A stretch of DNA of 54,071 bases from assembly GCA_905478665.1 (NCBI GenBank), contig CAJQJL010000051.1, positions 1 to 54,071 on the forward strand, given 5' to 3'. Made by a program: the position numbers and the translations under genes. Shown here in pieces: positions 10,328 to 13,851 of this stretch. The stretch is from an uncultured Flavobacteriales bacterium. Lineage in GTDB: Bacteria; Bacteroidota; Bacteroidia; Flavobacteriales_D; Crocinitomicaceae. A model generated the notes under the pieces. The model was not told the origin of the DNA, ran no database searches, and saw only the letters and a program-made list of their open reading frames with translations. Numbering within the stretch: position 1 is the stretch's first letter; every line of letters begins with the position of its first letter.

Positions 10328-10401
10328 TAACGGTTCTGCGGTAGGAAAAGTGGCGTTTTCTCTCGAGTGCAATCTTGCGCCATTTTTTTTACCGCATGTT
10401 A
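10328..10401 (-). repeat. attC-like palindrome, A-type copy 1
   Basis: On the plus strand the 74-bp unit starts with TAAC (10328-10331) and ends with GTTA (10398-10401). Nested inverted arms are TGCGGTA/TACCGCA and TGGCG/CGCCA, with an asymmetric spacer next to the outer boxes as in integron attC sites. The centre holds TTTCTCTCGAGTG, shared with the second copy. It begins 8 bp after the stop of the broken cassette gene, the usual gene-to-attC distance. No integrase gene is in the window. Confidence 0.55.
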
Positions 10402-10408
10402 TACACAT

Positions 10409-10752
10409 CTAATATAGTTCGATTTCACGAGTGTATTTGTTTTTCAATTCTCTAATACCATCTTCAGAAAGATAGACTTCCTGTGTCAACCGTTTCCCTT
10501 CGCATCAAAATCCTTATACTCATACTCATAGACAGTAGTAACAATACCTTTTTCATCAAGAAATTCCGTCCTTTTCAACTTACAATCTTTGTAGTATTTC
10601 TTAACATGCTCAACTCTACCAGCGTAATGGTCTTCTAGGAGAACTATTGAATCCCCTTCCCATGTCTGATAAGTAATTTCGAATTTTGATGTATCAAAAT
10701 CAGCTCTTTTTTCTGTACTGTAATAAGTTTTCCGTTCAGTAACGGTTGGCAA
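10409..10752 (-). pseudogene. Broken cassette gene (5' truncated and frameshifted)
   Basis: A coding frame running leftward from inside the A-type repeat encodes about 85 residues (YYSTEKRADFD, YQTWEGDSIVLLEDHY, YYKDCKLKRTEFLDEKG). It stops at TGA 10486-10488. A one-base shift near 10490 would continue it as GKRLTQEVYLSEDG and NKYTREIELY, with a stop at 10409-10411 immediately before the next repeat. No ATG starts the frame, so its 5' end is also missing or begins at TTG inside the repeat. The YYKxxKLKRTxF segment resembles the YwqK/MORN-2 repeats of the neighbouring cassette gene. A sequencing error at the shift is possible. Confidence 0.55.
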
Positions 10753-10813
10753 TAGGCTTTGTGGCGCTTTCTCTCGAGTGTAATTGTTGCGCGATTTTGC
10801 TTAGTGCATGTTA
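10740..10813 (-). repeat. attC-like palindrome, A-type copy 2
   Basis: This unit is exactly 74 bp from TAAC (10740-10743) to GTTA (10810-10813), the same length as copy 1. The core GTGGCG(C/T)TTTCTCTCGAGTG sits at the same offset and the right end reads GCATGTTATA as in copy 1. It starts 6 bp after the stop codon of the YwqK-like gene on the minus strand. The outer boxes and the bulged stem suggest a folded single-strand recombination site. Confidence 0.55.
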
Positions 10814-10819
10814 TATTTA

Positions 10820-11398
10820 TTAATAATATGGCTCTTCGGAATCAATAAAAAATTCATTTGATACGCTCGCTGGCCATTCTACAATCCACTTAACATTTTC
10901 ACCTTCATGCTTTTTATCTAATTGCTCTTGTTCCTTTTTATGATCATCTATTTCATCAAATTTTTTCACTTCTTTCAATGTACCATCCTTATTGTAGTAT
11001 GACCAAACTCCCACACGGGCATATCTTTCATAGGTTCCTGTTTTCTCCAATTTACCATTGGAATAATAAACGGATATACTTCCATTACCGATTGAATCAA
11101 TGGTCATATCAATTTGAATACTGCCATTTTCAAAATAGCGTACACAATGACCTTCTAAATCCCAATCCTTATAATTTGCGATAGCACTTTTCTTCCCATT
11201 TTCATAATACTCTTCATAGGCGCCATTTTTTTCACCCTTTTCAAAATGGATTTTGTATTGTAATTGTCCGTTGGGGTAATTTGTATAACAATAGCCGGAG
11301 AATTTTTCATCATCCCACTTCTCACTTTGGCAGGTGACCTGTGCTAATGAATCTGTTAAGCTCGTAATAATGATTAATATTATTAATAGGTTCTTCAT
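10820..11398 (-). CDS. Exported YwqK/MORN-2 repeat protein (cassette gene)
   Basis: This 192-residue protein has an N-terminal signal peptide (MKNLLIILIIITSLTDSLAQ). About five 22-24-residue repeats follow at about 30-155, each of the form YYxNGKLxxxGxYxxxxxxGxW (for example YPNGQLQYKIHFEKGEKNG and YYSNGKLEKTGTYERYARVG). This is the MORN-2 variant seen in YwqK-family proteins, often labelled antitoxins. A toxin partner is not adjacent. The gene starts 12 bp beyond a B-type attC-like repeat and ends 6 bp before an A-type one, so the gene plus one palindrome forms a compact cassette. An envelope-bound or immunity role is inference. Confidence 0.72.
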   Translation of the reverse strand: MKNLLIILIIITSLTDSLAQVTCQSEKWDDEKFSGYCYTNYPNGQLQYKIHFEKGEKNGAYEEYYENGKKSAIANYKDWDLEGHCVRYFENGSIQIDMTIDSIGNGSISVYYSNGKLEKTGTYERYARVGVWSYYNKDGTLKEVKKFDEIDDHKKEQEQLDKKHEGENVKWIVEWPASVSNEFFIDSEEPYY

Positions 11399-11409
11399 CT
11401 AATTAAATA

Positions 11410-11539
11410 TAACGGGATCGGGCTACGAAACGTGCGGCTCGCTACCCAAGTTGATATTTTGAAGGTAAGAATAGATTTTTAAACCAAAACGATTTTCCGA
11501 AGCAAAATTCCGCATGGTTTGTAGGACGTGTGGCTGTTG
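11410..11539 (-). repeat. attC-like palindrome, B-type copy 1
   Basis: The unit runs from TAAC (11410-11413) to GTTG (11536-11539). The arms GGGCTACGAAACGTGCGG (11420-11437) and CCGCATGGTTTGTAGGAC (11510-11527) pair at 13 Watson-Crick and 2 G-T positions out of 18. The central ~70 bp are AT-rich. The plan matches B-type copy 2 at 12291-12424. On the minus strand it lies directly upstream of the YwqK-like gene start. Confidence 0.55.
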
Positions 11540-11654
11540 CGCAACTTAGATTTTTTGAATAATGGTACAATTAGATCAAAACACGATGAGTTAGACTGCA
11601 CGCAATCAGGATATTACCTTTCTGGGGTAGTATGAAAATTGTTCAATTATTGAT

Positions 11655-11695
11655 TTGTTAGGTGTTGTGCAACGGTTACACGTGTTAGCAACTTC
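11655..11695. repeat. Short palindromic boundary after cassette gene 3
   Basis: Immediately beyond the stop of the 195-residue cassette gene lie GTTGTGCAAC and AACGGTTACACGTGTTAGCAAC. They hold TAAC/GTTA and GTTGCTAAC boxes like those at the outer ends of the neighbouring repeats. It may be the start of a truncated or rearranged attC-like site. About 110 bp with no recognised feature separate it from B-type copy 1. Confidence 0.4.
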
Positions 11696-12283
11696 CTATT
11701 TGAACATTGTCATTAGATACGATTTGATTTCGACTTTGTTCTTGAGGTCGATGATTTCTAATTTGAACCAATCTACTAGAATAAGATCATTGTCTTCTCC
11801 TAACTCATACAGTACATTTAACAACCTATCAAACTCAGAAACGGTAACAATTAGACTAACAGAAATCCATATAACACTCAGAAATTCTCCTTCTTGCATG
11901 AAGTGAATTTTCATTGAGTCAGATTTTAGGACCTTGTATTTACTTTCGTTAAAGGATTTTATTCGACCTTTCTCAAGCCTTATTTTGTTACATTTTTTAA
12001 AACCGCAACTGTCTAAATGTGTAACTAAGTAATCTGTTCTAATTTCTTGATTAATAAGTTTATGCGGCTCCAGTTTTCGCTCATGAATTTCGGTAAAACC
12101 ATTTACGTCACCGTCAATGTTAGAGATAATTTTGAATTCATCAAGAATGAGCTGTTTGTTTTCTTCATGTAATAGTTCTTCCTGAGCGATATCGTCCAGC
12201 CAAATTTGAGCTACCTCCTGTTTGGAAGATAACGTTTCAGATTTATCCGAACTTTTGATTTTTCGCTTAAATAACCAGTTCAT
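11696..12283 (-). CDS. Cassette gene of unknown function
   Basis: This gene encodes 195 residues from ATG at 12283. A longer upstream frame exists, but it reads through the B-type repeat and is unlikely to be translated. The ATG is only about 8 bp past the GTTGCTAAC box of that repeat, the normal layout of integron cassettes. The protein begins with basic residues (MNWLFKRKIKSSDK). A helical acidic region follows, then a C-terminal part with a hydrophobic stretch (SVIWISVSLIVTVSEF) and amphipathic strands. There is no signal peptide and no recognised motif. Many cassette-borne genes are orphans of this kind, and no function is proposed. Confidence 0.65.
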   Translation of the reverse strand: MNWLFKRKIKSSDKSETLSSKQEVAQIWLDDIAQEELLHEENKQLILDEFKIISNIDGDVNGFTEIHERKLEPHKLINQEIRTDYLVTHLDSCGFKKCNKIRLEKGRIKSFNESKYKVLKSDSMKIHFMQEGEFLSVIWISVSLIVTVSEFDRLLNVLYELGEDNDLILVDWFKLEIIDLKNKVEIKSYLMTMFK

Positions 12284-12290
12284 TCTAATT

Positions 12291-12424
12291 GTTGCTAACG
12301 TTTCGAGGCTAGGAACCGTGCGGCTCTTTACCAAGGTTGTCTTTCGAAGATAGTAATGATTTTCTAACTAGATTTTATCATACGAAGCATAAACCCCGTA
12401 TGGTTTTTAGGCGCTGTTATAAGT
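12291..12424 (-). repeat. attC-like palindrome, B-type copy 2
   Basis: TAAC (12296-12299) and GTTA (12416-12419) bound the unit. The arms GGCTAGGAACCGTGCGG (12307-12323) and CCGTATGGTTTTTAGGC (12396-12412) pair at 12 Watson-Crick and 4 G-T positions out of 17. Reading the minus strand, it begins TATAACAGCGCC, close to how Vibrio cassette repeats start (TAACAAACGCC), and ends CGTTAGC. It lies directly upstream of cassette gene 3. This is the best-preserved of the attC-like sites. Confidence 0.6.
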
Positions 12425-12702: not shown

Positions 12703-13851
12703 ATGGATGACTTTTTTGTAAGTAGACCCGATATTGATGAACACCTTAAGGATTTCACACAAAGTGGTACAAGCCTAATGTTAATAACTGGAGTGGGAGG
12801 TTCAGGAAAAACGACTATACTAAGATCATACTTTGATCAGCACTTGAAAGAGAAGTCTTTTGAAAATGGGATTTATATTTCAGGATTTAAAATTCGATCA
12901 GTTGACGATTTAGAGCTATTAATTTTGAAAGAATTTGATTCTAACAAATGGAGTAATGTTACAACCAAGATTAATGAGGAGGTTCGTGAGATTCTTCTTG
13001 CAATAATTAGGACACATAAAATGCTATTAATTTTTGACGGATTGGATGAAGTTCCTACTGAAAATCAGCGTCAGGTATTGGATTATTTAATATTTATAAA
13101 TGATCAATTTGCTAATGGATCAAAATTGATTGTTTCATCCCGAAAATATGCGGAAAATCTAGTTAAATCTAGGTCAGTTCATTGTATGTATTTGACAATT
13201 GCCCCCCTCTCTCATAAAGAGCTTATAGAAGCAAAAATAAAACAGTTAAGAAGGACGAGCCCTCGTAATGAAGAATTTTATAAGATATATAAATCACTTC
13301 TTGGAAATTCAAAAGACCTTCCACCAGCAATATTGGAATTGATGCTGAAATTGAATGATGACGATAGAGTGGTCTTAGAATCCTTTCATTCAAACAGTTT
13401 TAGTCCAAGTGATTTGATTGAAAAATTGTTATCAAACCTATGGTCAAAGTTGTCAGAGGGGGCAAAACAATTTGTAAGAGCATTGTTGATTTTTGAAGGA
13501 AGTGTGACAATTGAAAAATTATCCTTACTAGTTGATATTAATGACGAAGAATTCCTTGATTGTATTAATGAATTAAAGAAGTATGCCGTAATAAGTATTT
13601 CAGGTAATGTTGTGACTTTTATTCATAAGACTATTTGCGAAGGTTTATTAAAACTTTTGGAGCAAGATCATGAGGGATTAGATAATACGCTTGATATATA
13701 TATAGACTTAAATTATGTAGATAAAGAACAAGTTGTTGATTTGTTAAAAGTGCTTAATGATGTTTATAAGTCAATTGGAGGAGATGAATTGACAATAACA
13801 GAGAGTGGTATCAATCGGTTTAGCCATTGTCCCATAAAAGTACAAGTTTAA
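12703..13851 (+). CDS. NACHT/STAND-type P-loop NTPase without fused effector or sensor
   Basis: This 382-residue protein begins only ~25 residues before the Walker A motif GVGGSGKTT (30-38). Walker B LLIFDGLDE (108-116) has the acidic DGLDE form typical of NACHT and related STAND ATPases. A sensor-1-like SSR follows at 145-147. Residues about 235-325 form a winged-helix-like segment (LWSKLSEGAKQFVRALLIF, then LLVDINDEEFLDCINELKKYAVI). STAND proteins normally carry an N-terminal effector and C-terminal repeats; both are absent. The next gene starts 7 bp after the stop, so the two likely form one unit in which the partner supplies the missing function. Anti-phage defence or regulated signalling is inferred from the family. 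Base composition is visibly more AT-rich than in the flanking genes. Confidence 0.75.
   Translation: MDDFFVSRPDIDEHLKDFTQSGTSLMLITGVGGSGKTTILRSYFDQHLKEKSFENGIYISGFKIRSVDDLELLILKEFDSNKWSNVTTKINEEVREILLAIIRTHKMLLIFDGLDEVPTENQRQVLDYLIFINDQFANGSKLIVSSRKYAENLVKSRSVHCMYLTIAPLSHKELIEAKIKQLRRTSPRNEEFYKIYKSLLGNSKDLPPAILELMLKLNDDDRVVLESFHSNSFSPSDLIEKLLSNLWSKLSEGAKQFVRALLIFEGSVTIEKLSLLVDINDEEFLDCINELKKYAVISISGNVVTFIHKTICEGLLKLLEQDHEGLDNTLDIYIDLNYVDKEQVVDLLKVLNDVYKSIGGDELTITESGINRFSHCPIKVQV

Follow-up and report, generated by a model that had tools for sequence, protein, structure and literature searches.

The cassette array and its genes

The window, that is, the whole 54,071-nt stretch of DNA that was analyzed, carries a row of genes on its minus strand in which each gene is flanked by a palindromic site running from TAAC to GTTA. 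Read along this strand, the order is B2, a gene for a protein of 195 amino acids (aa), B1, a 192-aa MORN-repeat gene, A2, a decayed stretch, and A1 (Table 1). The palindromes reported here by the initial annotation (between 10328 and 12419) are present, the two A-type sites are exactly 74 bp each as it had given, and its length for the B-type sites holds for B2 (124 nt) and also for B1, once the 148-bp insert is set aside. The close spacing that it described between genes and palindromes was also found, as the 195-aa gene starts 12 nt past B2 and stops 8 nt short of B1, and the 192-aa gene starts 11 nt past B1 and stops 6 nt short of A2. It had counted three minus-strand genes; two of these stand, while the third is weak, as the sole open reading frame (ORF) between A2 and A1 (10486-10752) starts with TTG, overlaps into A2, and belongs to a cassette with unmatched ends. 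Just outside the array, on the plus strand (12703-13851), lies a P-loop gene (GVGGSGKTT) that by eye has the look of a STAND-type ATPase.

Table 1. Features of the window array and copies of the element end
Feature	Position	Strand	Description
attC-like site A1	10328-10401	-	74 nt, TAAC...GTTA on the coding strand
Decayed or hybrid cassette	10402-10739	-	No end-start complementarity; only ORF is 88 aa with a TTG start
attC-like site A2	10740-10813	-	74 nt; 3' spacer one nt shorter
Cassette gene, 192 aa	10820-11398	-	MORN_2 repeat protein
attC-like site B1	11410-11687	-	124 nt without the inserted element 11532-11679
Mobile-element remnant, 148 bp	11532-11679		Inside B1; 6-bp duplication ACGTGT
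Cassette gene, 195 aa	11696-12283	-	No Pfam family at E 0.01
attC-like site B2	12296-12419	-	124 nt
Element-end copies	Window 11532-11679; L023:2785-2810, 1009-1034; L027:1089-1114; L262, L263, L264		

A fixed geometry of the sites

The site geometry was derived from 106 distinct sites found in recombinase loci, in the arrays of relatives, and on two other contigs of the window's genome, with the window itself left out. Four sites shorter than 66 nt were omitted, and the remaining 102 share a single register consisting of TAAC, an A, 13 bp, an A.C position, 6 bp, and the loop, followed on the far side by a 5-nt spacer and GTTA. The base at position i after TAAC pairs with that at i+4 before GTTA, for i = 2-14 and 16-21. 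At position 15, A (88%) lies opposite C (72%); these bases mismatch in the coding strand and read T.G in the other, and the spacer consists of one A on one side versus five nucleotides on the other, CAAAA when read inward. Covariation within the palindromes, whose absence the initial annotation had named as counting against its reading, was found, as Watson-Crick pairs occupied 70.6% of cells at the fixed register in 75 sites free of near-duplicates, versus 37.4% (maximum, 42.2) with shuffled partners and 25 to 35% in slid registers.

All four window sites have the A.C centre and pair to a degree that was reached in 0 of 5,000 shuffles. A1 forms 16 of 19 pairs in the consensus register, B1 forms 14 of 19 (insert left out), and B2 forms 13 of 19; for A2 the count is 12 of 19 at offset 3 (its shuffles could use either offset) and 1 of 19 at offset 4. 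The scan for this geometry permits two spacer lengths, the shorter of which was introduced in view of A2 and of one site from contig C155, and in the 54-kb window it returned exactly three matches, all on the minus strand and all among the array sites; 20 shuffled windows, one strand each, gave none. By folding energy, A1 surpassed its shuffles (z of -4.43 for the plus strand and -3.14 for the minus strand), and by this measure alone A2, B2, and B1 (taken with part of its insert) were no better than theirs.

The consensus for the R boxes of canonical attC sites is RYYYAAC and GTTRRRY. Each of these motifs fits only 8 of the 106 sites, which places the sites outside the canonical box definition; the departure from GTTRRRY noted earlier for the R' boxes of the window is thus a general rule. 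The layout of an inverted repeat with paired arms, a spacer, and a variable loop is present in modified form. The conserved A.C (T.G on the bottom strand) may play the strand-choosing part of extrahelical bases. Site lengths are mostly 60 to 145 nt, within a scanner limit of 45 to 150 nt; the length given for canonical attC in PMC2727003 is 57 to 142 nt.

Cassette ends and exchange of a whole cassette

In 54 cassettes pairing continues beyond the boxes for about 11 positions, between the bases that follow a GTTA and those preceding the TAAC at the end of that cassette; position 7 of this extension is an A in 99% of the 106 sites. An end-start match of at least 6/7 was found in 54 of 68 cassettes, versus a shuffled-partner mean of 2.9 (maximum, 8); under other criteria, a previous count was 25 of 36 versus 2.3. 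A cassette start that is the reverse complement of the cassette's own end is expected if the circular form contains a single complete palindrome that is opened at GTT. In the window, the 192-aa cassette starts with GTTATATTTA, the reverse complement of its own end, and the start GTTAGCAAC and the end GTTGCTAAC of the 195-aa cassette are reverse complements. By eye the signature is present in two of the three window cassettes, the exception lying between A2 and A1, and in all four on contig C155 of the same genome; an automatic check of contig C84 returned one site pair plus one spurious pair.

Exchange at the boxes, proposed at the outset as a check between strains, was identified for one cassette in a comparison of three genera. 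A 187-aa gene together with its A-type site is common to genomes G032, G046, and G040, with identities of 98.0% over 664 bp and 90.8 to 91.4% over 650 to 653 bp. Upstream of this cassette lies a 71-nt site, a 129-nt site, or unrelated DNA, and identity extends from GTTA (or a few nucleotides earlier where the neighbors end alike) to GTT, where it switches. In G040 (locus L039, around position 925) the cassette follows AAGTAA|GTTA, and the 3-kb locus contains no upstream site or recombinase; this is perhaps a secondary insertion target.

Further copies and a mobile element within the sites

The genome from which the window comes is 89% complete and in 185 contigs. Further A-type sites were identified on contigs C155 and C84, and B-type sites, some of them degenerate, on C147, C2, C155, C69, C61, C84, and C179. 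Copies that fit the geometry are those on C155 (17, 17, and 14 pairs), C84 at 11154 (16 pairs), and C179 (15 pairs). The C147 site has 13 pairs and no A.C centre (2 of 5,000 shuffles), the fit is absent or partial in the copies at C84 8769 and 9704 and on C2 and C61, and a candidate fit on C69 lies on the opposite strand. The A-type site was present in 21 of 149 genomes, its own included, at no more than 95% identity; among the 38 non-self alignments listed, 24 start at query positions 7 to 11 and end at 82 to 84, approximately at TAAC and GTTA. The cassette genes of this genome include one for a caspase-domain protein (Peptidase_C14; C155, L023:2830-4236), and an IS110-family transposase fragment (PF01548) lies within the array on C84 (L028:9952-10332).

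The element whose remnant interrupts B1 is located solely in attC-like sites, as its end, GTTGTGCAACGGTTAC, lies 4 nt before a GTTA in all seven copies in the genome (Table 1). Related pieces are a DUF772 transposase fragment on C34 and a DDE_Tnp_1_6 fragment on C61. IS1111-type elements are described as targeting canonical attC (PMC11187229); the element in B1 likewise lies at attC-type sites and is of another family.

A recombinase linked to the arrays in relatives

In relatives, tyrosine recombinase genes accompany the arrays. A broken one lies upstream of the array in genome G039 (L065), and an intact one precedes the first cassette in G027 (L091, L116). In a sample of 40 loci collected after a search with the integron integrase family TIGR02249, which gave many sub-threshold matches, sites were mostly downstream and on the strand of the recombinase. 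Those with the HWLRH motif had downstream sites in 9 of 15 cases (23 sites in 77,455 bp), and those without it, which encode less related recombinases, in 8 of 25 (14 sites in 128,970 bp); the activity may therefore extend beyond the clade.

A second sample was obtained by comparing six array-linked proteins (alignment A4) with named genomes, and the best 80 of at least 559 confirmed relatives were used for the counts that follow. They came from Flavobacterium, Cecembia, Belliella, Crocinitomicaceae, Chitinophaga-labelled metagenome-assembled genomes (MAGs), Bacteroidales, and others. In these loci the geometry scan identified 105 sites downstream (290,360 bp) versus 2 upstream (639,792 bp); for the opposite strand the counts were 1 upstream and none downstream, and shuffled sequence gave 1. 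At least one site was present in 18 of the 23 loci with 5 kb or more of downstream sequence, and two or more in 15 of them; in 45 of the 80 loci a geometry site was not found. A simpler scanner, which uses TAAC-to-GTTA complementarity only, gave 75 sites downstream and 2 upstream over the same sequence, with 1 in shuffled downstream sequence; by locus, sites were found downstream in 36 of 80 and upstream in 1 of 80. The distance to the contig end is 2 kb or less on the downstream side in 43 of the 80 loci and on the upstream side in 8, an excess of the kind that repeats would cause.

At a threshold of E ≤ 1e-120, the linked recombinase was found in 89 of 396 genomes and 49 of 199 genera of Bacteroidia. 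A genome of the same genus as that of the window, G030, encodes the recombinase with downstream sites. The search of the whole genome for IntI or another tyrosine recombinase, suggested earlier, yielded XerC- and XerD-like proteins and others but no member of the linked clade in the 89% that is assembled; the link to the window therefore rests on shared site geometry and on relatives. An array-linked recombinase with one downstream site was also seen in a MAG labelled Ignavibacteria (L176), a case of transfer or a binning error.

The recombinase protein

The catalytic residues R, K, H-x-x-R, H, and Y are invariant (alignments A3 and A5), and the proteins match PF00589, which identifies them as tyrosine recombinases. 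The IntI-specific additional domain around patch III, a hallmark of canonical integron integrases, is absent from all 93 sequences compared. The KDR-to-HxLRH distance is 58 to 59 residues in these 93, 74 to 101 in nine IntI, and 62 to 66 in three Xer proteins, with two non-IntI exceptions of 105 and 75 residues, so that length alone is no proof of the insert. None of 299 genomes had a protein reaching the TIGR02249 cutoff. The array-linked recombinase of L116 has IntI4 (2a3v) as its best solved match (E of 4.7e-45), aligned in two pieces with chain residues 214 to 242 omitted. In a quick tree the array-linked clade falls with Bacteroidota recombinases and IntI forms a separate clade (support of 99), and in an AU test a single group of the recombinase clade plus IntI was not rejected (p of 0.061).

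Five of the recombinases scored 207.7 to 240.9 bits (cutoff, 220) against NF040815 (recomb_XerA_Arch); those above the cutoff, L116 and L083, are both outside the array-linked clade proper, and two clade members lie just below it (219.8 and 207.7). NCBI names this family "site-specific tyrosine recombinase/integron integrase." As the name already contains "integron integrase," parts of the system may have been sensed before; it is the name of a protein family and implies neither an array nor a site. Many members carry an extra N-terminal domain of about 66 residues (L211:9800-9997 and relatives), modelled as beta-beta-alpha-beta-beta-alpha, with weak hints of HARP below the cutoff. The HARP family binds DNA structures.

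An attI-like site and a promoter-like box

In Flavobacterium loci, about 101 nt past the recombinase stop codon are conserved, up to ATATA.ACAA|GTT, after which the sequences diverge. Candidate attI-like sites were identified in 43 loci, and in 18 of the 22 that could be evaluated the start of the first cassette matches its own attC at 6 to 7 of 7 positions; in the other four the search pattern seems to have picked a wrong site. An attI next to the integrase with a GTT crossover point is thus seen in relatives and not in the window. The motif TAnnTTTG occurs within 60 nt of the recombinase stop in 34 of 78 loci, in 30 of them at 7 to 14 nt; the background is 37 of 484 at the ends of other ORFs on the plus strand and 539 of 14,168 in control windows. 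TAnnTTTG is given as the -7 box of flavobacterial sigma A in PMC9723704, and the motif is a putative promoter from which cassettes could be expressed, a possible counterpart of the cassette promoter Pc.

Interpretation of the array

The window very probably contains an orphan cassette array of a Bacteroidota integron-like system that would be moved in relatives by the linked recombinase. In those relatives the system has at its head a tyrosine recombinase that is related to IntI and XerA but lacks the IntI-specific insert. In many cases the promoter-like box lies just past its stop; an attI-like site ending in GTT comes some 100 nt downstream, and then a row of genes, each with an attC-like site behind it in the orientation of the recombinase gene. 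The enzyme would bind the folded bottom strand of the attC-like site and exchange strands at the AAC/GTT triplet, and a cassette released in circular form could then be inserted again at attI or another attC-like site. Strand choice and chemistry of this kind are inferred, and the window sites would be, or have been, substrates of the linked recombinase. The proposal of integron-like cassettes without an integrase, perhaps of a Bacteroidota-specific variant, is supported by site geometry, covariation, cassette ends, the exchange of one whole cassette between genera, and the linked recombinase and attI-like site of relatives.

It is extremely improbable that the sites are dispersed repeats (MITE, REP, or terminator-like) that lie by chance between the genes of an ordinary row. 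They are palindromic, multicopy, and intergenic, as such repeats are, but in the loci scanned nearly all of them follow one kind of recombinase and share its strand, each cassette's end pairs with its own start, and a whole cassette moves together with its site; a MITE explains none of this linkage, end pairing, or movement. Movement of the array by host XerC/XerD or a phage-type integrase, with the linked recombinase unrelated, would agree with the recombinases found in the window's own genome. In loci with an array, however, the linked recombinase stands at one end, the attI-like site separates it from the first cassette, and almost no sites lie on its upstream side, which makes this very unlikely.

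Where the recombinase comes from is a closer matter. It is possible, if on the doubtful side, that this is a true integron with drifted sites, whose IntI lost the insert and forms a divergent branch inside or beside the IntI family. The IntI4 match, the AU test, the common AAC/GTT triplet and attI, and the inverse layout also described for Treponema (PMC3607928) are in its favor; the separate IntI clade of the tree, the absence of the insert in 93 of 93 sequences, and the TIGR02249 result argue against it. Alternatively, at a likelihood somewhat short of even, a second integron evolved in Bacteroidota or was kept from before IntI, in which an insert-less XerA/IntI-type recombinase would act on its own class of single-strand hairpin, whose geometry is fixed at 13+6 bp and in which T.G wobbles would stand in for extrahelical bases. 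We class the orphan array and its relatives as an integron-like variant of Bacteroidota, of one or two origins; judged from its parts it appears integron-like in its workings, and under definitions based on the IntI domain and the R boxes it falls outside the canonical class.

Should the arrays be functional, current tools would largely be missing a gene-capture platform in a major phylum, and the recombinase would test the need for the IntI-specific insert in folded-site recombination. Were the second-integron account true, folded sites would be recombined without the insert held necessary for them, by an enzyme present in about a fifth of the Bacteroidia species sampled. The cultured strains Flavobacterium saccharophilum DSM 1811 and Cecembia rubra DSM 28057 make experiments practical.

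Comparison with known systems

No description of the Bacteroidota system was found in the literature searched, preprints and subscription journals being outside its scope. The RefSeq survey with IntegronFinder 2.0 (PMC9024848) names one complete integron for Bacteroidetes proper, that of Salinibacter ruber M1, and a review includes Bacteroidota among the phyla with integrons (PMC8618304). With chromosomal (sedentary) integrons, as portrayed in PMC9024848, PMC9668308, and PMC2727003, the system shares a recombinase, an attI, and cassettes in one orientation, as well as AAC/GTT triplets, palindromic sites, and a cassette start complementary to its own end. It differs from them in a recombinase that lacks the IntI-specific insert, often has the extra N-terminal domain of about 66 residues, and points the same way as the cassettes, and in sites with R boxes off RYYYAAC/GTTRRRY, a fixed 13+6 bp inner stem, a conserved A.C position, and a 1-nt versus 4- or 5-nt central spacer. 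The inverse layout is shared with the Treponema inverse integrons, whose integrases, unlike those described here, are treated as IntI and whose R' box, GTTAGGT, fits the usual consensus (PMC3607928). Like CALIN elements, described as two or more attC-like sites without a nearby integrase (PMC9024848, PMC8618304), the window has at least two sites within 4 kb and no integrase, and the array is CALIN-like in a genome in which no cognate integrase was found; unlike in CALIN elements, the sites are defined by the new geometry and not by the attC model of IntegronFinder.
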